Below are positions 1 to 10,507 of a stretch of DNA of 45,713 nucleotides, one piece after another. The stretch spans positions 1 through 45,713 of the forward strand of contig DATIBR010000146.1 in assembly GCA_035457425.1 (NCBI GenBank), read 5' to 3'. The position numbers and the translations under genes are program-made. Each line of letters starts with the position of its first letter. Within the stretch, counting starts at the first letter, position 1. This stretch comes from Terriglobales bacterium (GTDB lineage Bacteria; Acidobacteriota; Terriglobia; Terriglobales; Acidobacteriaceae). The notes under the pieces were generated by a model. It saw nothing but the letters and a program-made list of their open reading frames with translations. It ran no database searches and was not told the DNA's origin.

Positions 1-495
1 TGGCTGCAAGACCTGCAGCCGGCGCAGCACGAGCGCCTCATCCGCTGGTGGCAGGACGAGATCGAAGGCACCGGCCGCGTGCCCATCTTATCGGTCGAGC
101 AGCGGCCCGAGGTGCTGCGCTTCGGCTCGGGCACCGACCAGGACCTGCGCCTCGCCTGGCAGGAGTTCCTCATCCGCATCATTGCCGACGCGTTCGACCT
201 GCCGCCGCTGGTGCTCGGCCTCGAGCACGACGTCAACCGCGCGACCGCCGCCGACCAGCTCGACCAGGCCTTCCGCACGGCCATCGTGCCGACCGCCCGC
301 CTGCTGGCCGAGCACCTCACGCGCGACGCCATCGGCAAGCGCCTCGGCTGGCACGACCTGGAGTTCGTCTTCACCGACGTGGACGCGCGCGACGAGCGCG
401 AAGAAGCCGAGATCCACGAGATCCTGCTGCGCTCGGGCGTGCTGACGGTGAACGAGGTGAGAAGGATGCGCGGACTAGCGGAGATCAGCGGCTAG
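1..495 (+). CDS. Phage portal protein, C-terminal part (5' end outside window)
   Basis: The reading frame is open from the first base and ends with TAG at 493-495, so the window holds about the last 164 residues. The tail of the protein (FRTAIVPTARLLAEHL, then a DAIGKRLGW segment, then LTVNEVRRMRGL) has the look of the C-terminal clip and crown region of HK97/lambda-type portal proteins, where a conserved 'vltvNEvRr.rGl' segment is common. Portals form the dodecameric ring at the capsid vertex through which DNA is packaged. The position directly before a protease, scaffold and capsid order supports this. The internal GTG at 79 is not taken as the start because coding continues upstream of it. 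The stop overlaps the stop of a gene on the other strand through a shared CTAG. Confidence 0.75.
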   Translation, partial: WLQDLQPAQHERLIRWWQDEIEGTGRVPILSVEQRPEVLRFGSGTDQDLRLAWQEFLIRIIADAFDLPPLVLGLEHDVNRATAADQLDQAFRTAIVPTARLLAEHLTRDAIGKRLGWHDLEFVFTDVDARDEREEAEIHEILLRSGVLTVNEVRRMRGLAEISG

Positions 496-752
496 CGTGG
501 AAGCACGAACCAGGCGATCGACATGATCACGGTGACGCTGAGTCCGATGATCCAGTAGGCCGTCCAGATCTTCTTCTGCTGGCGCTCGTTCTTGGACATC
601 GCGATCCACGCCGCTCTGCCAGACATCAGCGCCATCGCAATGATGCAGCCAGCGAGGAACTGAACGAACTGCCAGTGGCTGTACATCAGCCAAACGACCA
701 CACCGACGAGTGCGAAGGCCGCTAGTTCGGACAGCACGAATTGCCGATTCAC
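492..752 (-). CDS. Small two-helix membrane protein, cargo gene 1 at the portal/protease seam
   Basis: An 86-aa protein starting at GTG (750-752, VNRQFVLSEL). A longer in-frame extension exists but reads as low-quality sequence antisense to a phage fragment. Two hydrophobic segments are visible, about residues 7-45 (possibly a hairpin around LVGVVVWLMYSHWQFVQFL) and about 63-83 (WIIGLSVTVIMSIAWFVL), separated by a basic loop KNERQQKK. I do not recognise a family. It runs against the phage structural genes, is AT-richer than they are, and its TAG stop shares the CTAG of the portal stop. A moron-type accessory gene, for example for superinfection exclusion, is a plausible inference without direct evidence. 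Confidence 0.6.
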   Translation of the reverse strand: MNRQFVLSELAAFALVGVVVWLMYSHWQFVQFLAGCIIAMALMSGRAAWIAMSKNERQQKKIWTAYWIIGLSVTVIMSIAWFVLPR

Positions 753-766
753 GGACCCATCTGAGC

Positions 767-910
767 ATGAAGACCGATATCCAATCCATGGCAATCGAGA
801 TGCCGCCGGTCGTCTGCCCAGGCGGACATCCGAACCGGCTGCCGTTCCGCGGCGTGCTGACGGTGAGCGAGGTGAGACGGATGCGAGGGCTGCCGGAGAC
901 CAGCGGCTAG
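767..910 (+). pseudogene. Chimeric relic: protease-gene start fused to portal-gene end
   Basis: This 47-codon frame starts like the downstream protease-like gene: MKTDIQSMAIEM followed by HPNRLPFRGVLT matches MQIESMAIAL and HPNRLPFRGVLT at 1317. After GVLT it switches to a copy of the portal C-terminus (VSEVRRMRGLPETSG versus VNEVRRMRGLAEISG). By hand count about 53 of 60 bases at 851-910 match 436-495. The junction lies in the GGCGTG(C/T)TGACG word common to both genes, which suggests recombination at microhomology. It is most likely a non-functional scar between two cargo genes, although the frame is intact and could be translated. Confidence 0.7.
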
Positions 911-1287
911 GCGAGCTCGCGACTCTCGTTGCCAGGGAAGAATGCTGCAAACAGGGCGGCCATCCATACCGGAAAGAAGACGAGATCGAAGAGGTCATGT
1001 TTTCGATTGCCGTGGAGAAGATAGCCGTCAAGCCACGGCACCTGATAAATGATCTCGAAGAGCAACAGATTATGAAGAAAGCGGTATCGATATTTCTTCA
1101 TTGCTTGCACAACGCGATCTCGCCGGAGCGGCAAATGCGCAGAAATCAGCAATACTCCGCCACCAAGCCCAATAGCTAGATCGACCGCTTCAAAGTTCGG
1201 CCGTACCTCCAACCAGACAACAAAAACCATTAGCACCAGCGATAGGGGAATCGCCCAGCGAAGATCGACTGCGGCTCGCTTCTCCAT
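907..1287 (-). CDS. Multi-pass membrane protein, cargo gene 2 at the portal/protease seam
   Basis: A 126-aa protein with ATG at 1285-1287. About four hydrophobic stretches are visible: residues 11-28 (IPLSLVLMVFVVWLEV), 34-52 (VDLAIGLGGGVLLISA), 70-88 (FLHNLLLFEIIYQVPWL) and 98-117 (VFFPVWMAALFAAFF). A basic loop (LRRDRVVQAMKKYRYR) lies between the second and third. No family recognised, and there is no evident similarity to cargo gene 1, although it occupies the equivalent position. Its stop overlaps the stop of the chimeric relic through CTAG, exactly as cargo gene 1 overlaps the portal stop. It is AT-richer than the phage genes, which suggests separate acquisition. Role unknown. Confidence 0.6.
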   Translation of the reverse strand: MEKRAAVDLRWAIPLSLVLMVFVVWLEVRPNFEAVDLAIGLGGGVLLISAHLPLRRDRVVQAMKKYRYRFLHNLLLFEIIYQVPWLDGYLLHGNRKHDLFDLVFFPVWMAALFAAFFPGNESRELA

Positions 1288-1316
1288 GGGCCTATTACTT
1301 CATACGGACCTGCCCA

Positions 1317-2003
1317 ATGCAAATCGAATCCATGGCTATTGCGCTTCCGCGTATTGCGGCGCACCCCAACCGCCTGCCCTTCCGCGGCGTGTTGACGCTG
1401 GTCGACTCGCCCAGCGAGCGCGCGCCCGCCGGCGCGCGCGGTCACCGCGTTCTTCTGACGCGCGAGGCCGCCGAGCGCGCGCTGCCCTCGCTGCTCGGCA
1501 TGGGGCTCGACTTCACGCCGTCGCTCGACGGACACGACGCGCGGCGCAAGGTGGGCGTGATCACCAGCGCCGAGATTGTGGAGCTGTCGTCGGCCCACGG
1601 TCCACGGCCCTCGGCCGCGACGGAACTGGACGGCCGACGACCGAAGACCGACGACCGACGACTCGCGCTGGAAGTCGCGGGTTATCTGTTCGCCAAGGAC
1701 TTCCCCGACGTGGTGCGCGAGCTGCGCGCGGCGGGCCAGTCGCTCGGCATGTCGTACGAGGTCGCCGACGCCCGCGTCGCCGACACCGGCGCCCAGGTCT
1801 GGGTCCTGAACGAAGTGACCTTCACCGGCGCCGCGGTGCTGAAGAAGAGCAAGGCGGCGTATGCGGGGACGTCGATCGAGATCGAAGCCGTCGTCGGCTC
1901 TCGGCCCTCGGCCGCAACGACTCTGGACGGCCGACGACCGATGGCCGTCGACCGACGACCCACCAACATTCGGGCCGCTAGCCCACAGCAGGAGCTCCCA
2001 TGA
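1317..2003 (+). CDS. Prohead protease-like protein with two repeat-derived insertions
   Basis: A 228-aa protein. Residues 61-90 (GMGLDFTPSLDGHDARRKVG) and 117-180 (LEVAGYLF.KDFPDVV, then LGMSYEV, then VWVLNEVTFTGAAVL) resemble the core of HK97-type (S78/U35) capsid maturation proteases. Those use a His-Ser pair; His73 and Ser146 are candidates, with Glu166 as a possible third residue. These proteases process the scaffold and capsid during prohead maturation. Two copies of a hairpin repeat interrupt the gene in frame: one encodes about residues 91-116, the other about 192-216 near the C-terminus. The stop overlaps the next start (ATGA). The assignment rests on gene order and motif pattern, so the family is moderately sure and the exact activity less so. 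Confidence 0.55.
   Translation: MQIESMAIALPRIAAHPNRLPFRGVLTLVDSPSERAPAGARGHRVLLTREAAERALPSLLGMGLDFTPSLDGHDARRKVGVITSAEIVELSSAHGPRPSAATELDGRRPKTDDRRLALEVAGYLFAKDFPDVVRELRAAGQSLGMSYEVADARVADTGAQVWVLNEVTFTGAAVLKKSKAAYAGTSIEIEAVVGSRPSAATTLDGRRPMAVDRRPTNIRAASPQQELP
1586..1662. repeat. Hairpin repeat family B, copy 1 (inside the protease-like gene)
   Basis: Two 32-nt arms (1586-1617 and 1631-1662) form an imperfect inverted repeat with 25 of 32 positions pairing by hand count. The right arm is built from the word CCGACGACCGA. It is translated in frame as a low-complexity stretch with DGRRPK and TDDRR. Related copies are at 1890, 10514, 31673 and 38146. Confidence 0.75.
1890..1959. repeat. Hairpin repeat family B, copy 2 (inside the protease-like gene)
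   Basis: The left arm 1890-1914 and right arm 1928-1959 repeat copy 1 closely, including the TCGGCCCTCGGCCG core and the GGACGGCCGACGACCGA right arm. It is translated as the near-C-terminal segment with DGRRPM and VDRRPTN, so the repeat has altered the end of the protein. Confidence 0.75.
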
Positions 2004-2401
2004 ACGAAGAACTGATCCAGCAACTCTCCGCCACCGCGGACCGCTTTGCCGCGGCCACCGAGGCGCTCGAGCACACACTCGCGCGGCTCGACGAGCAGTC
2101 CGGCAAGATCGACCGCATCGTCGCCGCCATCGACGAGAGCGACGCGAGCACCCGCAAGACGCTCGAAGAGCGCGTCACCGAGCTGGTGCACGCCAACGAC
2201 GAGCTGCGCGCGCAGGCCGCCCGCCTGAGCGCGCAGCGCAAGACGCTGCCGCCGCTCGTCACCGCCATCCTCGCGAAAAACGGGTACGAGCCGGCGGAGA
2301 CGATCGATGCCGCCGTGCTCGACAAGACGCTCGCCGCGCTCTCGGTCGAGCAGCGCATCGCGGTGAAGAGCGAGATGGCCAGGGCAGGACTGATCGAGTA
2401 G
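2000..2401 (+). CDS. Coiled-coil phage protein, probable scaffold
   Basis: A 133-aa, charged, strongly alpha-helical protein. Residues 1-80 show heptad-like spacing of Leu, Ile and Ala (for example FAAATEALEHTLARLDEQ and IDRIVAAIDESD), followed by a short C-terminal domain (TAILAKNGYEPAET). The start overlaps the end of the protease-like gene by ATGA, implying translational coupling. A coiled-coil protein between a protease and the major capsid gene is the usual place for a scaffold, which guides capsid assembly and is then removed. No catalytic motif is present. It could also be a head decoration or unrelated structural protein; scaffold is an inference from order and composition. Confidence 0.5.
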   Translation: MNEELIQQLSATADRFAAATEALEHTLARLDEQSGKIDRIVAAIDESDASTRKTLEERVTELVHANDELRAQAARLSAQRKTLPPLVTAILAKNGYEPAETIDAAVLDKTLAALSVEQRIAVKSEMARAGLIE

Positions 2402-2439
2402 TTCTCGCACCTTCTGACCCTTCGGCTGTTTTCAAACGT

Positions 2440-2530
2440 CCCGAGCCCGCCGCGGCGGGCTCGGGAACCCTACTCTCACGAGAATTCGTCGTGACGATAG
2501 GGCTCCCTCGCGCTGCGCGCTCGGGATGTT
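2440..2530. repeat. Hairpin repeat family A, copy 1 (between scaffold and capsid genes)
   Basis: It contains the palindrome CCCGAGCCCGCCGCGG followed by its complement (CGGGCTCGGG). A spacer and a second complementary part ending CTCGGGA follow. The same core, GAGCCCGCCG(C/T)GGCGGGC with a trailing CGCTCGG word, recurs at 13610 and 42535. It occupies most of the 182-bp gap before the capsid gene, so the repeat family has spread into the prophage. Confidence 0.7.
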
Positions 2531-2583
2531 TTTTGTACGAGATATCCACGCAGCACACACCTCCTCCTTTCGAAAGGACACCC

Positions 2584-3555
2584 ATGCACGCAAAATTCCT
2601 CGACCTCCACGCCGCCGCCGACTTCCTCGGGCCGGGCGCGGTGGAGGTGAACCGCTACCAGAACGAGATCACCGACATCGTCCGGCGCCGCGGCGCCTTC
2701 GGGCAGCGCATCAAGCAGGTGCCGGCCACCGGCCACCCGTCGCGCTTCTTCGAGCAGACGGCGATCGCCGCCAACTCCGCGGCGAACGCCTTCGTCGACC
2801 CGCGCAACATCGTGGCCACGGTCGCCGCGCCCACGCGCGCCGAGCGCTCCGTCCCGCTCAAGGCGCTGGTCTCGCAGATCAACTACAACCTGTTCGACCT
2901 CGAGGTCGGGCAGCAGCAGTCGCAGTTCGCCTTCCTCCAGGCCAAGGACCTGGCCGACGCGGTCGAGGGCCTGCTGCGCACGCACGACGTCGCGCTCTGG
3001 AACGGCAACGACACCTCGCTCTCCACGCCGACGACCAACCAGTACTACGGCGCGGCCGCGCAGATCGCCGACGGCGGCAACGTCGCCACCGTCGAGACCA
3101 CCGAGAGCATCGTCGACGGGCTGAAGCAGACCATCGCCGAGATGGTCGCCAGCTCCAGCTACGAGGTGCGCCCGACCGCCATCTACGCCAACCCGGTGCT
3201 GCTCGACTTGATCGACCGCGAGATGAAGGACCAGTTCAACGTGGTGCTCGCGACCGCCGAGATCTTCGGCGGCCTGCGCGTGAAGACGCTCTCCACCCAG
3301 GCGGGCGAGCTGCCGCTCATCCCCGAGTGGTCGCTCGGCTACACCGGCACGCCCGGCTCCGGCTCCGCGGTGCTGCCGGCCTACATCGTGAGCGAGGACA
3401 TGATCGAGTACCACTGGCTCACCGACCCCAACCCGCGCGTCTTCCAGCTCGGCCTCTCGGGCTCGCTCGCGCAGCAGCACGTCGTCGTGAAGTTCGGCGG
3501 CGTGGTGGTCAAGGGCGCCGGCTACGCGCACTACAAGGTGAACGTCGAGCGGTGA
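2584..3555 (+). CDS. Phage major capsid protein
   Basis: A 323-aa protein with ATG at 2584, preceded by CGAAAGGACACCC (AAAGGA as ribosome-binding site). An upstream in-frame extension is rejected because it runs through a repeat. The N-terminal part (FLDLHAAADFLGPGAVEVNR) is followed by a long mixed alpha/beta body. Stretches typical of capsid subunits include VRPTAIYANPVLLDLIDREM (an 'allele lookup' helix region) and the C-terminal VFQLGLSGSLAQQHVVVKFG strand segment. Length and place, after protease and scaffold and before the connector, match a major capsid protein that assembles the icosahedral shell. The C-terminus ends cleanly before a repeat. The specific capsid subfamily cannot be stated by eye. 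Confidence 0.75.
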   Translation: MHAKFLDLHAAADFLGPGAVEVNRYQNEITDIVRRRGAFGQRIKQVPATGHPSRFFEQTAIAANSAANAFVDPRNIVATVAAPTRAERSVPLKALVSQINYNLFDLEVGQQQSQFAFLQAKDLADAVEGLLRTHDVALWNGNDTSLSTPTTNQYYGAAAQIADGGNVATVETTESIVDGLKQTIAEMVASSSYEVRPTAIYANPVLLDLIDREMKDQFNVVLATAEIFGGLRVKTLSTQAGELPLIPEWSLGYTGTPGSGSAVLPAYIVSEDMIEYHWLTDPNPRVFQLGLSGSLAQQHVVVKFGGVVVKGAGYAHYKVNVER

Positions 3556-3561
3556 TTCCGA

Positions 3562-3634
3562 TTCAACGCAGAGGCGCAAAGCACGCGGAGGTTGATTTGT
3601 GCCTGCCTCTGCGAACTCCGCGACTCTGCGTTGA
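3562..3634. repeat. Hairpin repeat family D, copy 1 (capsid/connector gap)
   Basis: The left arm 3562-3591 (TTCAACGCAGAGGCGCAA...) is an imperfect inverted repeat of the right arm 3605-3634, which ends CGACTCTGCGTTGAA. It fills the gap between the capsid and connector genes and leaves only a short leader for the connector. Similar 'cgcagaggcgc' words recur at 44353-44421. Confidence 0.7.
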
Positions 3635-3646
3635 AGAAGAGGTCCC

Positions 3647-4276
3647 ATGATCTATCTCAATCCTTCCGAATACGAGCAGTACGGCCTGGACCACTCCGCG
3701 GCGGCAGCGCTGGTGGCGGCGGCTTCGTCGCTCATCGACGCGCACTGCCGCCGCGCGACGTTGGGCGTGGCGCAATACGTGGAACGCGTGCGCCTGCGCC
3801 CCGGGCGCAACTCCCTGCGGCTGACCTACCTCCCCCTGGCCGCGCTTGCGCCCGCCTCCTCTCCCTTCGTCGCGGTGAAGGCGCGCTACACCGTGCCGCG
3901 CCGCGGCGAAGGGCTGGAGGGGGATCCGCTCGCCGTCGAGGTCGCCGGCGCCTTCGGGCTCCCCGGCGCCTGGACCGCGCTCGATCCCGCCGCGCTCGAG
4001 CACGATGCCGCGACCGGCGAGGTCGCGCTGCCGCAGCATCCGCTCGGCCTCGGCTACAACGAGGTCGAGGTGACGTACACCGCGGGCTTCGCCGCCATCC
4101 CCGAGGCGGTGAAGTTCGCGTGCGCGCAGGTCGCGCGCAACGCGCAGGCCACGCCCGCGCTCAACGTGAAGAGCTCGGGCCTCGACCGCATGCAGATGGC
4201 GTACTTCGAGGATTCGCTGCTCGACGCCTCGGTGCGCGCGCTGCTCGCGCCCTTCATGGCGCAGAAGGTGGGCTGA
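3647..4276 (+). CDS. Head-tail connector / head completion protein
   Basis: A 209-aa protein. The N-terminal helix (EYEQYGLDHSAAAALVAAAS) is followed by SSLIDAHCRR. Further on are a beta-rich middle, the segment VEVTYTAGFAAIPEAVKFAC, and a helical end (SLLDASVRALLAPF). This arrangement is characteristic of gp6/gp15-type connector proteins that bind under the portal ring, in which 'v.vtYtaGy..iP..v..A' is a hallmark. It directly follows the capsid gene and overlaps the next gene by one base (TGATG), so the two are probably translated together. Function in closing the DNA-filled head and joining the tail follows from the family. Confidence 0.7.
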   Translation: MIYLNPSEYEQYGLDHSAAAALVAAASSLIDAHCRRATLGVAQYVERVRLRPGRNSLRLTYLPLAALAPASSPFVAVKARYTVPRRGEGLEGDPLAVEVAGAFGLPGAWTALDPAALEHDAATGEVALPQHPLGLGYNEVEVTYTAGFAAIPEAVKFACAQVARNAQATPALNVKSSGLDRMQMAYFEDSLLDASVRALLAPFMAQKVG

Positions 4277-4692
4277 TGGAAGACTACTCCGCGTTCGCTC
4301 CGCACACCCTGGGCGCGACGGCCGCGCGCGCTGCCGAAGCGCTGCTGCGCTCGCTGGGTGACGGTAAGGTCACGCTGCGGATCCTGCTGCCCGAGGGGGC
4401 CGCAGGTGGCGGCTTGGGATTAGCGGCGCCGCAGACCGAAGAGGTCGAACTCTGGCCGGCGATGGTCCGGCTGGTCGCGCCCGGCGAGGACGGCGGCGCG
4501 CGCTACGAAGTCGCGATCGCCGGCAGCTCCGTCGTAGAAGAAGCCGAAAAGCGCAACCACGAAAGCGCCGACGAATTCCTGGCGGCCGCGCTCGGCGTCG
4601 TGCTGGGCGAGAAGCTGTTGCGCATCGTGAACGCCACGCCGCACTCCTGCGGCGGGAAGGTCTATCTGTACCGGCTCGAGGCGCGCGGATGA
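4276..4692 (+). CDS. Phage protein of unknown function between connector and tail terminator
   Basis: A 138-aa protein whose ATG overlaps the connector stop by one base. It has a helical N-terminus (GATAARAAEALLRSL), a beta-rich middle with EEVELWPAMVRLVAPG, and a C-terminal segment (ADEFLAAALGVVLGEKLLRI) ending KVYLYRLEARG. Its place between connector and tail terminator is where head-closure (stopper) or neck proteins are coded, so a neck or stopper role is possible. I do not recognise a specific family. Codon use and GC content match the neighbouring phage genes. Confidence 0.6.
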   Translation: MEDYSAFAPHTLGATAARAAEALLRSLGDGKVTLRILLPEGAAGGGLGLAAPQTEEVELWPAMVRLVAPGEDGGARYEVAIAGSSVVEEAEKRNHESADEFLAAALGVVLGEKLLRIVNATPHSCGGKVYLYRLEARG

Positions 4693-4696
4693 GCGC

Positions 4697-4891
4697 TCAG
4701 CGGAAGTCTTCGTCCGCCTCGATGGGCGAGGCGGGCCGCACGAAGCGGAAGCGCACCTCCCCGTTGCAGATGTTGCATTCGGGGAATACCCCGCCGCCCG
4801 CCGCCGTTACGGGATGGCTCTCGCGGTGCCCGCGGTGGATCGCCTCGTAGATCCCCGACTGCGGGACCGCTTCTCCGGGTTTGAACAGCAT
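4697..4891 (-). CDS. Small CxxC protein, copy 1 (YjzC-like front, zinc-ribbon-like knuckle)
   Basis: A 64-aa protein on the strand opposite the phage genes. I start it at ATG 4889-4891 because AAAGG lies upstream at a good distance and the paralogue at 5071 starts at the same point; a longer start at 4951 is possible. It reads FKPGEAVPQSGIYEAIH, then HRESHPVT, then FPECNICNGEVRFRF. One CxxC pair is visible, and nearby histidines might complete a metal site. The front half (FKPGE.VP.SGIY) recalls YjzC-type small proteins. Sequence and orientation say paired duplicate with 5071-5301; the function is unknown. Confidence 0.6.
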   Translation of the reverse strand: MLFKPGEAVPQSGIYEAIHRGHRESHPVTAAGGGVFPECNICNGEVRFRFVRPASPIEADEDFR

Positions 4892-5070
4892 GAACAGCCT
4901 TTCGTCGCGCCGGACACCGTCGTCCGAGGACACACGTCCGCTCTGCGACATTCTGGATTCGGGGCAGGTGGCGCTCAGCAGGGAGGTCTCGCGGCCACAA
5001 CGCCCGCGGGAAGCAGATGAGTCAGTTCCCGCGTCGTCAGAATAGATGCCGCCCTCGGAGGCGAGGTTGA

Positions 5071-5301
5071 CTAGCGGCCGTTGGCGGCTTTCTTGGCGGG
5101 GCGGAAGTCGTAATCATCGCGCAGGAAGTGCACTTCCTGGAGGTAGACGAAGCGCACGCGGTCGTCGCAGCGCGTGCACCGCGGAAAGTGCGAGCCCGCT
5201 TCGATCGTCACGTCGTGCGGCATGCGGTGCGCGTGGTGCAGCACGCGGTACATGCCCGATTCCGGCGCTGCCTCGCCCGGCCTGAAGGTATCGCGTTCCA
5301 T
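5071..5301 (-). CDS. Small CxxC protein, copy 2 (paralogue of 4697-4891)
   Basis: A 76-aa protein with ATG at 5299-5301. Alignment by eye with copy 1 gives a shared pattern: F(K/R)PGEA.P.SG(I/M)Y, three or four residues, H..HR..H.VT, then G..FP.C..C...VRF. The conserved residues are those expected for a fold and a metal knuckle, while the C-terminal tails differ; copy 2 has a basic RPAKKAANGR end. The two copies sit in tandem, both antisense to the phage genes, in the gap between the 138-aa gene and the tail terminator-like gene. A role as accessory cargo is inferred from position only. Confidence 0.6.
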   Translation of the reverse strand: MERDTFRPGEAAPESGMYRVLHHAHRMPHDVTIEAGSHFPRCTRCDDRVRFVYLQEVHFLRDDYDFRPAKKAANGR

Positions 5302-5460
5302 GGAGCCGCCTGACTTACGGTTGCGGCCGCCCGTGAGGGCAGCGCGTTCCTGGAGTGCTAGGCAACGAAGGGGGACGAAGCCCGGCGCGCACACTTCCGC
5401 TACCCGATTCGATGTCCCGCGCTCGCTTCAGAGTTGCTCCTGCCCAAGGTCAGACAAACG

Positions 5461-5958
5461 ATGCAATCCGCCAAAGACAGCTTCTACATCGCGCTGCGCG
5501 ACCGCCTGGCGGCGCTCGCGCCGGACCGCACCGTCACCATCGGGGGACAAGAACGTCCCGCGGTGGTGGTGGCGGAGAACGAACCCGTGACCTCCAGCTC
5601 GCCTCTGCCCGACGCGTTTTACCTGCACTGGGAAGGCGCTCGGACGGCGTCCGCATCGGGCGCGCGGCGTCCGCTGCTGCGGCTCGACTGCCGCATCGCG
5701 TACCGCACGCTGGGTTCGAGCGAGCTGAATGGCCTCGACCGTGGGCGCGCGCTCGCCGCGCTCGACCTGGAGCTTTGCGGCATCCTGGCGCCGCACTTCG
5801 CGGAGAAAAAGGACTACTCGCAACCGGAGCCGCAAGCGCTGGGCTCGGCGGTGCTGTGGTCGCCGCCGGAGTTCGCCGCCGCCGAGGCGCACGACCGCGA
5901 GCTGCGCCGCGTCGCAAGGGTCGCGCTCTTCTTCTGGCCGGAGGTGGAACTGCCATGA
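5461..5958 (+). CDS. Tail terminator / minor tail-like protein
   Basis: A 165-aa protein taken from ATG 5461, with AAGGT 11 bases upstream; a start at 5434 is also possible. The N-terminal helix (AKDSFYIALRDRLAALAP) leads into a beta-rich body with ERPAVVVAENEP and AFYLHWEG. LRLDCRIAYRTLG follows, then a helical segment (LDRGRALAALDLELCGIL). This resembles the layout of tail terminator and completion proteins, in which a helix is followed by a beta sheet carrying 'r...i.i.......G......ra..l...l...L'. Its stop overlaps the next start by ATGA. The assignment is by fold pattern and position. Confidence 0.5.
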   Translation: MQSAKDSFYIALRDRLAALAPDRTVTIGGQERPAVVVAENEPVTSSSPLPDAFYLHWEGARTASASGARRPLLRLDCRIAYRTLGSSELNGLDRGRALAALDLELCGILAPHFAEKKDYSQPEPQALGSAVLWSPPEFAAAEAHDRELRRVARVALFFWPEVELP

Positions 5959-6920
5959 CCGCACGCGCCGCCATGCTGCCCGCCGGCCGCCGCTGGCGCG
6001 CCTACTTCGCGCCCGTGGAGCGCGAGACCGGCACGCCGCAGCTCTTCGACCCCGCGCTCGACGCCGCCTTCGCGCTCGACGCCCCGCCGGCGCCCTGGCT
6101 GGACCTCGGCTGGATCGAGAGCTTCGCGCGGCGCTCCGCCACCGAGACGCTCGCGATCGCCGCCGGCCCGAACCAGGCGGTGCTTCGCCAAGCCCGCAAG
6201 AACCTGCGCGCCGAGGTCGAGTTCGCATTTTGCGATTGGGGCAAGCTCCAGATGGCGCTCGCCGGCGGTGCGCAGCACATGAACGTGCTCGCGCCGGCGG
6301 GCTCGACGCGCGTGCCCTCGGGCGCGGCAGCCGCCGCAGCCGTTCCGCTGGAAGCAGGCTCCACGGCGAGCCAGCTCGTCGTCGGCGCCGGCGCGGTCGG
6401 CAGTTTTGCCGCCGGCGACCTCGTCGTCGCAGACATCGACTACACCGGCGAGACCGGCTACGTCGGCTCGGGCCTCGCCGGCGCTTGCGTCACGTCGTCC
6501 GCCGCCGTCGGAGACGACCCCGGTTACATCCGCCGCGTGAGCTTCAACGTCGGCCGCGTCGCCGGCAAAGACGCCACTTCGCTCGCCCTCGCGCAGCCGC
6601 TGCCCGGCGGCGCGCCGGCCGCGAACGCGAAGGTGCAGAAGGTCATCGGATTCACCGACCGCGAAGGCGGCGCGTTCTTCCAGGAGTGGTCGGGGCTGTT
6701 CGTCTTCGAGAACGAAGCGGGCGGGCGCGTCATCCTTCATTACCCGCGGCTCCAGCCGGCCGTCCCGGCGGCGGAAGGGAAGCTCGAGCTGGCCGAGCCG
6801 TTGTGCGCGCTCACGCTGCACGCGCGCTTCACCGCGCTGCCGCTCACCGATGCGAACGACTCGGAAGCGTGCCTCTGCTGGCGGACCTACTACCCAGTCG
6901 GCGGGTCGACGTTATATTGA
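5955..6920 (+). CDS. Tail tube-like structural protein
   Basis: A 321-aa protein coupled to the previous gene by an ATGA overlap. It begins AMLPAGRRWRAYFAPVERET and has a WLDLGWIESFARRS segment near residues 47-60, then a long Ala/Gly/Val-rich beta-type middle (TASQLVVGAGAVGSFAAGD). Near the C-terminus comes KVIGFTDREGGAFFQEWSGL. The combination of a 'dlGwi...' start and a repeated beta-strand body, between a terminator and a hub, is what a major tail or tube protein would look like. The 3' end overlaps a gene on the other strand by 31 bases. Minor tail or baseplate protein is an alternative. Confidence 0.45.
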   Translation: MTARAAMLPAGRRWRAYFAPVERETGTPQLFDPALDAAFALDAPPAPWLDLGWIESFARRSATETLAIAAGPNQAVLRQARKNLRAEVEFAFCDWGKLQMALAGGAQHMNVLAPAGSTRVPSGAAAAAAVPLEAGSTASQLVVGAGAVGSFAAGDLVVADIDYTGETGYVGSGLAGACVTSSAAVGDDPGYIRRVSFNVGRVAGKDATSLALAQPLPGGAPAANAKVQKVIGFTDREGGAFFQEWSGLFVFENEAGGRVILHYPRLQPAVPAAEGKLELAEPLCALTLHARFTALPLTDANDSEACLCWRTYYPVGGSTLY

Positions 6921-7423
6921 CCCGTGTTCTCAGTTTTCGCTCTTTCGATTCGCGCGCGGACCCAGGCCACGGGCTCCGGTTCAGAGCGGCCCCGAAGCAT
7001 CGCCCAGTACTCGCCCACCGAGACGCCGGCGGGAGTGGTCACGCCGGCCGGAATGATGACTTCCAAATAGCCACCGACGGGCCTTCGCAGCCGCAGCACC
7101 AGCTCTTCACGGATCAGGCTGAACTCGATCGACCGGACGTCGTGCCAAGCGACAAAGCGCTGCGTCCGCCAGCGCTGGACATAGATCCCGGAATCGTCGG
7201 CTACCGCGTAAGCAAACTTGCCCATGTGAAAAACAATCAGTGCACCACCCACCATCACCATCACTCCCGCAGCCAATGCGCTTTTGCGGTCTAGATAAGC
7301 TGCGAGCCCAAGCGCGGTGAGAATCCCCATAACGCTGAGGGTGACGATCAGGACAAAGGCAACGGCGACTCGTGTGCCTATCCACGAGCTTCTACTTCCG
7401 AGGACTCGGCGCGCCTCTTCCAT
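6890..7423 (-). CDS. Membrane protein with PH-like domain, cargo gene 3
   Basis: A 177-aa protein starting at ATG 7421-7423; upstream in-frame sequence is rejected as antisense to the hub gene. Two hydrophobic segments, about residues 18-44 (VAVAFVLIVTLSVMGILTAL) and 48-68 (ALAAGVMVMVGGALIVFHMG), are followed by a cytoplasmic-type domain with DDSGIYVQRWRTQRFVAWHD and VRSIEF. This is the pattern of bacterial PH-like (bPH) domains after a membrane hairpin. A TACAAT -10-like box lies nine bases before the ATG. It is antisense to the phage operon, overlaps the tube-like gene's end by 31 bp, and is AT-richer than its neighbours. A third moron-type insertion is likely. Confidence 0.6.
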   Translation of the reverse strand: MEEARRVLGSRSSWIGTRVAVAFVLIVTLSVMGILTALGLAAYLDRKSALAAGVMVMVGGALIVFHMGKFAYAVADDSGIYVQRWRTQRFVAWHDVRSIEFSLIREELVLRLRRPVGGYLEVIIPAGVTTPAGVSVGEYWAMLRGRSEPEPVAWVRARIERAKTENTGQYNVDPPTG

Positions 7424-7450
7424 TGCCGGCCGATTGTAGCGAAACACCAG

Positions 7451-9772
7451 ATGAAACTTCTCATCGACAACACGGACTACACGTGCGCGCTGGCCGCCGA
7501 CGGCGCGCCGCGCGTCCTGCGCCGGCTGAACCAGCCCTCGCGCTTCGAGTGCGCGCTCCTGCTCACTCCGGCCGCGCCTGTGATCCCGGCAGCGAACGCG
7601 CGCGTCGTGCTCGAGCGCGAAGATGGCGCAAAGCTCTTCACCGGCTACCTCGACGCCATCCCGGAACACGAGTACCTCGGCTGGGGCGAGCGCGGGCCCG
7701 AGTACCGGCTGCACATCACGGCGACCAGCGACGAGCTGCTGCTCGACCGCAAGGCGCTGCCCGAGCGTCCGCCGTTCGTGGCGCGCCCCGCGGGCGAGAT
7801 CCTGCGCGCGACCGCAGCGAGCCTGCTGCCGGGCGCCTTTGACGTCTCCGGCGTCACCGACCTCGGCGTCATCCCGTCGTACGAAGCCGACTTCCAGCGG
7901 CCGTGGTCGGAGCACGCCGCCGCGCTCGCGCTGCTCGCGCGCGCCGCCTATCGCGCGCACGACGGCTCACTGGTCTTCCAGCCCGTCGGCAGCGCAAGCC
8001 ACACGCTCGAGGAAGAGTCTCCCACTTTCACCCCCGAGGGCCTGAAGCTCGCCGCCCCACAGCGCTTCGTGAACGACGCGACCATCATCAGCCGCGCCGA
8101 GCCGCGCCTGCACGTGCGCGACTACTTCGTCGGCGACGGCCTCACGCTGCAGTTCGACCTCTCGCGCACGCCCTTCGCGCAGCGCACGCGCGTGCTGCTG
8201 GACGAAGAGTTCGCCGGCGACGAACTCGACCCGCTGCGCTGGACGCAGGCCGATCCCGCCGCCGCGCTCAGCAGTTCCGGCGGGCAACTGGCTGTTGCCG
8301 GCGGCACCGCGACCGACGGCGAGACGCGCGTCGAAGCGGTCGAGCGGCTCGAACTGGGCGGCGGACTCCTCCTTCAGCACGGCGAGTTCAGCTTCACCGC
8401 CGCATCGGACGCCGTGCTCGGCGGCCTCTACGCCGGCGCGGTCAATGTCGCCGGCTGTTTTGCCGGCTTCCGAGTCACGCCTTCCGGCGACCAGTCTGCG
8501 ATCCAGGCGCTCATCGACGGCAGCGCGACCGGGTCGGCCGTCACGACGGTCGCTGGCCACCGCTACGGCATGACCACGCGCCTCTACGCCATCGAGAACT
8601 TCCGCGCGTCGCAGACCTTCCATTCGTCCGCGCATCCCGCCGGCAGCGGCCGCGGCGGCGGCGCGCTCCCGAGCGGCGCGCGCCTCGTGCTCGAGCTGCA
8701 CGACATCGACCCAGCAAACCCGGGCTCGCAGGGCGCCGCCGCCACTGTCCTGTATGACGCGGTCGTCAGCGACGTGCCCGCGCTGGTGACCTACGCGCTG
8801 CTCAACGTGACGACCGCGCACTGCTCCACGCCGTTCGCCCGCATCGCGCGCATCTCCGGCGTAGAGGTGCGCAGCCAGGCACCCTCGCAAAGCTATCGCA
8901 CTCGCCTGGTCGGCGCTCTCGCCGACGGCGGTGAGTGCCAGGTGTTCCAGACTCCCGAGCTCCAGTTCTTTTCCCAGTACCCGCCGGTCGCGGGCGAGCA
9001 GATCGTGGTCCGCTACCGCAGCCAGGCGCGCAGCCTGGCGCGCGTCATCGACCCCGCCAGCATCGCCACGCTCGCCGCCGGCGCCGATGACGGCGTGCGC
9101 TCCGCGGTGCGTTACCTGGCGGCGCCCGCGGCCCGCACCAGCGCGGAGTGCGAGACCGCGGCGCTTGCCCTGCTCGACGACTCGACGCAGCAGGCGTGGG
9201 CGGGCGAGTATCGCGCGTGGAGCGACGCCCTGCCGGGCGGCCCGGCGACCGACGTCTGGCCCGGCGACGCCTTCGCCGTCGACATCCCCAGCCGCGGCGC
9301 CGAGTTCACCGCCCTCGTCCGCGAGGTCGAGCTCTTGTGCGCCGACCTCCGCGGCGACGGTTCCCGCTACCGCATCGCCTTCGCCAACGACGCCGCGCAG
9401 CCGCCCGGCTTCGCGTTCGATCCCGCGCGGCTCGACGAGCCGCTCGAAGACGTCGCCACGGTCACGACCGCCGGCACTCTGTTCGCGCCCGACCTCTCCG
9501 CCGCCGAGATCACCGGCGCCACCTCGACCACCGTCGACATCGATTGCGGCCTCACTCCGCCGGCAGGGTGGGGCGTCGAGGTCCGGCGCAGCGACCGCGA
9601 TTGGGGCGAGGAGAACGACCGCGACCTCGTCGGCCGCTTCACCACGCGCACCTTCACGGTCCCTCGGCTCACGCGCGTCGTCGACTTCTTCCTGCGGCAA
9701 CACGACGACTCGTCCCCGCGCAAGTACTCGCGCAACGCCACGCTGCTGCACCTCGACTGGCCGTACAGCTAG
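7451..9772 (+). CDS. Large tail hub-like protein with an internal lectin-like domain
   Basis: A 773-aa protein. The first 200 residues look like a hub or late-control-type protein: an N-terminal strand (MKLLIDNTDYT), RVVLEREDGAKLFTGYLDAI, then an ITATSDELLLDRK strand-helix. Around residues 255-430 there is a probable concanavalin-like beta-sandwich, beginning EEFAGDELDPLRW and continuing with LLLQHGEFSF and AVLGGLYAG. The C-terminal part (RYLAAPAARTSAECE, then QAWAGEYRAWSD, then EFTALVREVEL) returns to a tail-protein style, with a final fibronectin-like segment (TVDIDCGLTPPAGWGVEVRR). It probably combines tail-tip assembly with binding to a cell-surface sugar. Domain calls are by eye. Confidence 0.5.
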   Translation: MKLLIDNTDYTCALAADGAPRVLRRLNQPSRFECALLLTPAAPVIPAANARVVLEREDGAKLFTGYLDAIPEHEYLGWGERGPEYRLHITATSDELLLDRKALPERPPFVARPAGEILRATAASLLPGAFDVSGVTDLGVIPSYEADFQRPWSEHAAALALLARAAYRAHDGSLVFQPVGSASHTLEEESPTFTPEGLKLAAPQRFVNDATIISRAEPRLHVRDYFVGDGLTLQFDLSRTPFAQRTRVLLDEEFAGDELDPLRWTQADPAAALSSSGGQLAVAGGTATDGETRVEAVERLELGGGLLLQHGEFSFTAASDAVLGGLYAGAVNVAGCFAGFRVTPSGDQSAIQALIDGSATGSAVTTVAGHRYGMTTRLYAIENFRASQTFHSSAHPAGSGRGGGALPSGARLVLELHDIDPANPGSQGAAATVLYDAVVSDVPALVTYALLNVTTAHCSTPFARIARISGVEVRSQAPSQSYRTRLVGALADGGECQVFQTPELQFFSQYPPVAGEQIVVRYRSQARSLARVIDPASIATLAAGADDGVRSAVRYLAAPAARTSAECETAALALLDDSTQQAWAGEYRAWSDALPGGPATDVWPGDAFAVDIPSRGAEFTALVREVELLCADLRGDGSRYRIAFANDAAQPPGFAFDPARLDEPLEDVATVTTAGTLFAPDLSAAEITGATSTTVDIDCGLTPPAGWGVEVRRSDRDWGEENDRDLVGRFTTRTFTVPRLTRVVDFFLRQHDDSSPRKYSRNATLLHLDWPYS

Positions 9773-9782
9773 GAGCATTTGC

Positions 9783-10061
9783 ATGTCTGAGGAACGACCA
9801 CACTTCAAGTGCCCGCTCGGCATGACGCCCGGGCGCATCACCATCCCCGAGTTCGAGCAGCAGGTGCTGGCGGACCTCACGGAGCTGAAGACGCAGATGA
9901 AGTTGCTGCTCGGCAACGGGCAGCCGGGCCGCGTCCAGTTGCTGGAAAGCCGCGTGGAACATCACGAGGCGCTGGTGCAGCGCGCCGTCGGCGTGGGCGC
10001 GCTTGCCGGCTTCCTCACCACCATGCTCAACCTGGTGTTGAGCTACCTGCAAAGGCGATGA
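9783..10061 (+). CDS. XhlA-like small phage protein with C-terminal membrane segment
   Basis: A 92-aa protein with ATG 9783, starting MSEERPHFKCPLGMTPGRIT. The middle (VLADLTELKTQMKLLLGNG, then LLESRVEHHEALVQR) is a likely coiled coil. The C-terminus is one hydrophobic segment (VGVGALAGFLTTMLNLVLSY) followed by a short basic end (LQRR). This layout matches haemolysin XhlA and related holin-accessory proteins that sit beside endolysin genes. Its stop overlaps the glucosaminidase start by ATGA, which supports a shared lysis role. Confidence 0.6.
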   Translation: MSEERPHFKCPLGMTPGRITIPEFEQQVLADLTELKTQMKLLLGNGQPGRVQLLESRVEHHEALVQRAVGVGALAGFLTTMLNLVLSYLQRR

Positions 10062-10507
10062 CCAGCGAAGAGTTCCTGCGGCAGGCGGCGGAGGCCGCGC
10101 GCGCCAGCTCCGCCGCCAGCGGCTTCCCGCCCGGCGTCACGGTCGCGCAGGCGGCGCTCGAGTCGGCGTGGGGACGGTCGCGCCTCGCCACCGAGGCAAA
10201 CAATTACTTCGGCATCAAGGTGCACGGCGGCATGCCGTCGATCGCGCTGCCGACCGTCGAGATCGTGGCGGCGGCGCCGGTGCGCGTGGTCGCGCGCTTC
10301 GCGCGCTACGCCTCGATGGCAGACTGCTTCCACGACCGCGACGCCATCCTCGCGCGCGTCCCGCTCTACGCCGAGGCGCGCGCCGCCTCCGCCGATCCCG
10401 AAGCCTTCACGCGCGCCCTCGCGAAGCGCTGGGCCACCGACCCGCAGTACGCCGACAAAGTGCTCGCCATCTATCGCACGCATCGGCTGGATGCGCTCGA
10501 CCGCTAA
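10058..10507 (+). CDS. Phage endolysin, GH73-type N-acetylglucosaminidase
   Basis: A 149-aa single-domain protein. The segment PPGVTVAQAALESAWGRSRL contains the catalytic glutamate of the family (Glu35) in the usual 'aQaaLESgwG.S' setting. NNYFGIKVHGG follows and then a FARYASMADCFHDRDAIL stretch; both are hallmarks of FlgJ-type glucosaminidases. These enzymes cut the peptidoglycan glycan strand. No signal peptide is present, so it would depend on a holin such as the neighbouring small membrane proteins. It overlaps the XhlA-like gene by four bases. The C-terminal segment (ALAKRWATDPQYADKVLAIY) is also typical. Confidence 0.85.
   Translation: MTSEEFLRQAAEAARASSAASGFPPGVTVAQAALESAWGRSRLATEANNYFGIKVHGGMPSIALPTVEIVAAAPVRVVARFARYASMADCFHDRDAILARVPLYAEARAASADPEAFTRALAKRWATDPQYADKVLAIYRTHRLDALDR

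Follow-up and report, generated by a model that had tools for sequence, protein, structure and literature searches.

At the seam between the portal gene and a protease-like gene (positions 436 to 1400), the phage-like head gene cluster of an Acidobacteriaceae draft genome probably holds two seam alleles that were joined in tandem by recombination between related clusters, near codons for Gly-Val-Leu-Thr (GVLT) shared by both genes. The interpretation as two stacked alleles of a cargo locus, proposed in an earlier note on this DNA, is backed by the versions of the seam found in relatives and by the mainly synonymous differences between the duplicated copies. Recombination at microhomology is a plausible part of that proposal. 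The special hot spot that it also suggested was not supported, and the cluster looks vertically inherited rather than like an ordinary prophage.

Results

The window, i.e., the whole stretch of 45,713 nucleotides that was analyzed, is one entire contig (G000:C146) from a draft genome that totals 3.1 Mb in 192 contigs, and the head gene cluster occupies positions 1 to 10507 of the window. Read from 5' to 3', the seam consists of the portal end, an antisense ORF (orfA), a chimeric ORF of 47 codons, a second antisense ORF (orfB), and the start of the protease-like gene. Direct inspection and a repeat search together revealed two portal ends, two protease-like starts, and two antisense ORFs in precisely the order claimed beforehand. 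With 821 nt, the seam is much longer than the median of 87 nt (quartiles, 44 and 148 nt) in 138 genomes.

The 3' part of the portal gene (1 to 495, plus strand; PF04860, E = 3.7e-24), within which the contig begins, is 61 to 85% identical to the portals of relatives (53% for one contig-cut copy). Its end, designated A1 (436 to 495, plus strand; repeat family D3), comprises the word GGCGTGCTGACG (436 to 447, read directly) and the C-terminal codons, and it recurs as A2 (851 to 910, plus strand) with 88% identity across 60 nt, which is far beyond chance. The start of the protease-like gene (C2; gene at 1317 to 2003, plus strand) has a relic counterpart, C1 (767 to 862, plus strand), of which 75 nt could be aligned to relatives; the repeat search matched 779 to 806 with 1323 to 1350 (79%) and 827 to 870 with 1362 to 1405 (82%). 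In the chimeric ORF (767 to 910, plus strand; 47 amino acids), C1 forms the front and A2 the back, and the join falls in GGCGTGCTGACG at 851 to 862, the opening word of A2, whose codons for GVLT are encoded by both parent genes. The fusion of a protease-like start to a second portal end at GGCGTG(C/T)TGACG was thus present as described. This motif occurs at 436 to 447, 851 to 862, and 1386 to 1397; the claim of a word common to both genes is exact for the two portal ends, but the present copy in the protease-like gene, GGCGTGTTGACG (1386 to 1397, plus strand, read directly), differs at one base.

The two units also share the small signatures that had been pointed out for them. A CTAG contains both the cargo stop and the portal-end stop at 492 to 495 (orfA/portal) and again at 907 to 910 (orfB/A2), and ACGGACC precedes the next start at 751 to 757 and at 1304 to 1310. 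The latter motif is present in four copies on the plus strand of the whole window. Among 115 other seams that measure 30 nt or more, just one has it in its last 45 nt, which rules the motif out as a conserved start signal.

The chimera had no family match in Pfam and PHROG searches. When it was compared with 122 seams longer than 40 nt, its sole match was the duplicated portal end of genome G114, and its matches elsewhere in the loci of relatives lay solely within portal or protease-like genes. A full independent gene family, which the earlier note had named as an outcome that would count against stacking, was looked for in this way, and judging from these matches the chimera is evidently not one. 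The designation of the protease-like gene likewise needs qualification: a gene is present at 1317 to 2003, but its name derives from its position only, and a Pfam search returned no match. The gene harbors two in-frame copies (85%) of a dispersed GACGACCGA-type repeat (1598 to 1662 and 1895 to 1959). Most relatives align to it just around residues 88 to 117; those of G021, G025, G026, G030, and G055 align through and may therefore hold something there too.

Relatives of the protease-like gene were detected in 37 of 100 genomes (the own genome included, one match weak) and, when 300 genomes of the family were searched, in 170 of them, again counting the own genome, with one match each except in G000 and G155; the second match of G000 is the chimera. 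Named genomes contributed 209 relatives, and since 79 of the best 80 of these 209 bear acidobacterial titles (Acidobacteriaceae, Terriglobia, Edaphobacter, Terriglobus, and others; the title of the remaining one reads Rhodanobacteraceae), the family is termed Acidobacteriaceae-like. A query with the putative major capsid protein (MCP) retrieved 20 viral contigs; the seam could be measured in 17 of them, and in none did it contain a convincing gene. The seams of L257 and L258 and those of L259 and L260 are identical. Searches of viral contigs yielded no relatives of orfA, orfB, the proteins orf72 and orf75 described below, or the protease-like query.

Altogether, 155 seams were measured, in 110 of 115 unique genome-search loci, 28 of 30 named-genome loci, and 17 of 20 viral-collection contigs. 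Loci with identical first 200 nt were counted once in the genome sets but not among the viral-collection contigs. The five genome-search loci without an upstream portal are the g34 genomes, and three loci without a match to the protease-like start were left out (L041, L168, and L171, the latter two being further stretches of genomes otherwise counted). The gap was negative in 7 cases, 0 to 200 nt in 127, and longer in 21.

Convincing seam genes were found in 5 of the 155 loci besides the window (G114, G159, G267, G025, and G006), while G055, with an antisense single-transmembrane (TM) ORF, is marginal; many seam ORFs of 60 to 130 amino acids without a TM segment or family were judged by eye to be spurious. 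Relatives that never carry genes at this place, which had been named as the other outcome unfavorable to stacking, are thus not what was observed. Empty, single-cargo, and portal-end-duplicated versions all occur among the 155 seams, so that the check suggested beforehand came out in favor of stacked alleles. Antisense TM proteins (orf72/orf75; 39% identity, E of about 3e-16, dN between genera of 0.64) are located at the seams of G114 and G159; a search of 300 family genomes turned them up in 2, both times at the portal/protease-like seam. The expectation of other membrane genes at the same place was thereby borne out, these two having no detectable kinship to orfA or orfB. The remaining loci contain an antisense gene with a hydrophobic N terminus (G267), a PemK-like toxin gene and a second ORF on the strand of the portal (G025), and an antisense TruB gene and a rhomboid gene (G006). 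In G115, which belongs to the same genus as G159, the seam is empty, i.e., the extra gene is absent from a close relative, as for an accessory-gene cassette.

The cargo genes repeatedly reach into the portal end. In G159, the cargo end and its stop are read from the antisense strand of the last 21 nt of the portal gene, and the end of the antisense gene of G267 also lies within the portal end. In G114, a second, duplicated portal end precedes the antisense TM gene; the cargo ends within this duplicate, and the true portal ends upstream. Because the cargo overlaps the portal 3' end, a transferred cargo gene would have to bring a portal end along to keep its own tail, and the overlap would thus account for the joint movement of cargo and portal ends. 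G114 furthermore has two portal versions on two contigs (L294 on G114:C201 and L072 on G114:C4) that overlap in the gene and are 86.7% identical over 249 nt, reflecting either a strain mixture or a second copy.

Both ORFs of the window are predicted to encode small membrane proteins with three TM segments each, i.e., orfA (492 to 752, minus strand; 86 amino acids, GTG start), whose stop lies within the portal-stop CTAG, and orfB (907 to 1287, minus strand; 126 amino acids, ATG start), whose stop lies within the A2-stop CTAG. Their composition is unlike that of the surrounding genes, another trait of an accessory-gene cassette: the GC content is 0.58 (0.582) for orfA and 0.525 for orfB versus 0.69 to 0.71 for the portal, the protease-like gene, and the MCP gene, and the value of orfB is among the lowest 0.2% of 381-nt windows. 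In 300 family genomes, orfA had no match beyond itself and orfB had one relative (33% identity), in a G029 locus without recognized phage genes. None of these 300 genomes carries orfA alone or orfB alone at the seam, so the parental alleles are unseen. A shuffling test revealed no similarity between orfA and orfB (p = 0.78), and hhalign comparisons among orfA, orfB, and orf72/orf75 found nothing. Across the 15 pairs of the shuffling test, the best p value outside the two related pairs, orf72/orf75 and orfB/G029, was that of orf72 and the G029 relative of orfB (0.009), followed by orfB/orf75 (0.04) and orfA/orf72 (0.08); given the weak orf72/G029 signal, the families of orfB and of orf72/75 may be remotely linked. 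The predicted structures were poor (pLDDT of 63 for orf72 and 51 for orfB).

In 124 seams with both motifs found (window included), the median number of matching positions among the 12 of the GVLT codons in the portal and the protease-like gene is 10, and all 12 agree in 9 seams. Portal end and protease-like start have 12 or more consecutive identical nucleotides in 14 of 124 seams versus 1 of 410 control pairs. Recombination at this microhomology, as put forward in the earlier note, is plausible on the basis of these alignments, given that both genes encode GVLT, but the parents are unseen, and the portal end and protease-like start now present in the window have an exact run of just 6 nt in common.

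Divergence was assessed on short stretches of 33 to 75 nt, which limits the comparisons that follow. Over its 75 aligned nucleotides, C1 is 89.3% identical to G003, 88% to G115, and 81.3% to C2; the latter is an outlier to all, its best relative (82.7%) being about as near as C1. The differences amount to 8 synonymous and no non-synonymous changes for A1/A2 of G114 (16 codons, p = 8e-6), 9.5 and 4.5 for C1/C2 (21 codons, indel stretch omitted, p = 9e-5), 7 and 0 for C1/G115, and 4 and 3 for A1/A2 of the window (p = 0.09; compatible with neutral divergence). Because the differences are mainly synonymous, the duplicated parts seem to stem from alleles that each functioned separately and not from a local duplicate in decay, significantly so for C1/C2 and G114 but not for A1/A2 of the window. 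Upstream of the last 48 nt, the portal genes of G159 and G115 are identical at 328 of 360 sites, and within this final stretch at 27 of 45 (p = 3.5e-7); a 33-nt comparison yielded 91.7% identity upstream and 63.6% downstream; the antisense overlap itself could have shifted codon choice in G159. Conversely, A1 of the window and G159 are 90.9% identical downstream at 82.5% upstream, a likeness that is not strong when taken alone, as it is shared by 4 of 45 pairs in the bin.

The idea that the portal/protease seam is a special hot spot was not sustained. In loci of at least 9 kb plus the window, gaps of at least 300 nt were counted in 12 of 107 cases for portal/protease (window included), 17 of 98 for DUF3037/portal, 10 of 108 for protease/scaffold, and 0 to 7 for each of the remaining eight cluster seams. 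Since few loci are occupied (5 of 155, with 127 of the 155 gaps at 0 to 200 nt) and two other seams are long about as often, this seam does not stand out. In the g34 genomes (five examined; L284, L286, L288, L290, and L292), the block from the giant gene through TerL, HipA, and DUF3037 to the portal has been relocated between two downstream genes, g321 and g717, leaving 14 to 17 kb between the portal and the protease-like gene. The portal/protease seam is therefore one of several breakpoints; a circular permutation is ruled out in g34, the arrangement being a block move.

Additional ORFs were noticed elsewhere in the clusters. Two antisense ORFs of the window (4697 to 4951 and 5071 to 5394, both minus strand; 44% identity), the second with a YjzC-like Pfam match, are stacked at the g133/g180 seam, which at 753 nt is the longest of 102 measured. 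An antisense ORF of 177 amino acids with a hydrophobic front (6890 to 7423, minus strand) fills the 530-nt g321/g717 seam and, like the seam cargo genes, overlaps the 3' end of the upstream gene that it faces by about 31 nt. In L118 and L165 (genus g23), an antisense PurK-like gene, named from its N-terminal sequence only, separates the scaffold gene from the MCP gene, the gaps being 2156 and 1905 nt long.

The gene order in relatives is giant gene, TerL, HipA-like kinase, DUF3037, portal, protease-like, scaffold-like, MCP, and adaptor, followed by four further genes and then, in the loci looked at, by host-like genes. TerL, portal, and head-tail adaptor were recognized; the MCP (2584 to 3555, plus strand; PF17236, E = 0.0023, below cut-off; 86.7% identical in G114) is putative, and none of 10 proteins of L140 matched a tail family. 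The MCP had no match in 50,697 phage records, and TerL matched 557, all with less than 60% identity and with 27 to 29% among the ten matches listed. For the MCP, dN/dS is about 0.09 to 0.44 (28 pairs). A quick MCP-plus-portal tree of 91 rows (90 of 99 labeled loci and the window), judged by genus labels, required 37 label changes for 38 genera, which is the minimum; genera taken singly, g8 needs 3 changes and g90 needs 2.

Discussion

Contrary to the earlier note, which spoke of a phage setting, the cluster (relatives L003 to L251 included) is mostly single-copy and its tree follows host genera; it looks vertically inherited rather than like an ordinary prophage, and for the same reason related prophages are the wrong comparison set. 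The tree and the dN/dS values fit vertical inheritance under selection, as in gene transfer agents (GTAs). Like a GTA, the cluster is a set of head genes that is present mostly once per genome and looks as if passed down with its hosts, and it may be GTA-like in function. In the parts of the literature consulted, PMC5900883 and PMC12142844 among them, neither the seam nor a vertical descent of the cluster is mentioned.

For the seam itself, a coherent scenario can be sketched. Each allele would consist of a portal end, an antisense membrane-protein gene, and a protease-like start. Incoming DNA from a related lineage would have undergone recombination with the resident cluster, and one of the crossovers would have been illegitimate, falling in the stretch of roughly 12 nt for GVLT that the portal and the protease-like gene have in common. 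The resident start C1 would have been fused to the incoming portal end A2 and would survive as the 47-codon relic, and the intact portal (A1) and the intact protease-like gene (C2) would both have stayed in frame. The small membrane proteins are assumed to be accessory genes that are transcribed separately from the opposite strand.

The geometry would also fit a local tandem duplication, in which the unit was duplicated by unequal crossover at the portal/protease-like likeness and one cargo was then replaced or diverged. At the GVLT codons the portal and the protease-like gene resemble each other (again, a median of 10 of 12), ACGGACC is retained before the next start in both units, and cargo can diverge fast, as the 39% identity and the dN of orf72/orf75 between genera illustrate. 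However, some other genera have starts that are closer to C1 than C2 is, the copies differ mainly synonymously although one of each was free to decay, and orfA and orfB are without similarity; a duplication of this kind seems unlikely to us. Still less probable is plain insertion tolerance, i.e., that the seams of a slowly eroding, non-essential phage remnant gather host genes and repeats without function. Inserts do occur at other seams, the window has antisense ORFs at two further seams and repeats in the protease-like gene, and PemK-like toxin, TruB, or rhomboid genes occupy the seam in other genomes, but the dN/dS of the MCP and the presence of the cluster in 170 of 300 genomes argue against simple erosion, antisense genes overlapping the portal end recur, and the C1|A2 join would by itself be left unexplained.

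An assembly artefact that fused two strain variants of one locus in a draft genome deserves mention because the 192-contig assembly begins this contig within the portal, and the two portal versions of G114 show that strain mixing may occur in such bins. Yet the parent genes are alike across just about 12 nt at the join, which is below usual assembly k-mers, these being longer, and a duplicated portal end is also present in another genome, G114; we consider an artefact very improbable. The tandem joining of two seam alleles from related clusters therefore is the interpretation that we favor.

Such a stack suggests a route by which accessory genes may enter a conserved head cluster and pile up there while leaving it unharmed. 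The newcomer is oriented convergently with the portal, makes use of the portal stop region, and brings a spare portal end. The setting may even outweigh the stack: with a genus-following capsid cluster in a soil family this widespread, cultivable members would offer a way to test domestication and perhaps gene transfer. More speculatively, and with rather low odds in our own estimation, the cluster could be a domesticated, possibly GTA-like capsid cluster of the Acidobacteriaceae whose antisense membrane genes, turning over fast and set tail to tail against the portal, are exchanged release or exclusion accessories and whose stacks record GVLT-guided exchanges between lineages.

Among known systems, the acidobacterial prophage clusters 140 and 153 are tailed-phage-like prophages in several Acidobacteria genomes (Eichorst et al. 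2018; PMC5900883); they are described as prophages, and in the accessible parts of that source the seam, its cargo, and vertical inheritance are absent.

Gene transfer agents such as RcGTA resemble the cluster in their mostly single-copy, genus-following head genes flanked by host genes. Unlike RcGTA, the cluster is without a recognized tail or tape-measure gene, and it is a genomic observation so far. Phage morons are autonomous accessory genes between structural genes, and the cargo of the window resembles them as small opposite-strand genes of different GC content between unbroken head genes. Unlike morons, it shares the portal stop region and brings a copy of the portal end, its two units are stacked with a chimeric relic between them, and the element that hosts it looks like a vertically inherited cluster. 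As accessory genes in a phage module, the stack is thus ordinary in kind and unusual in form.
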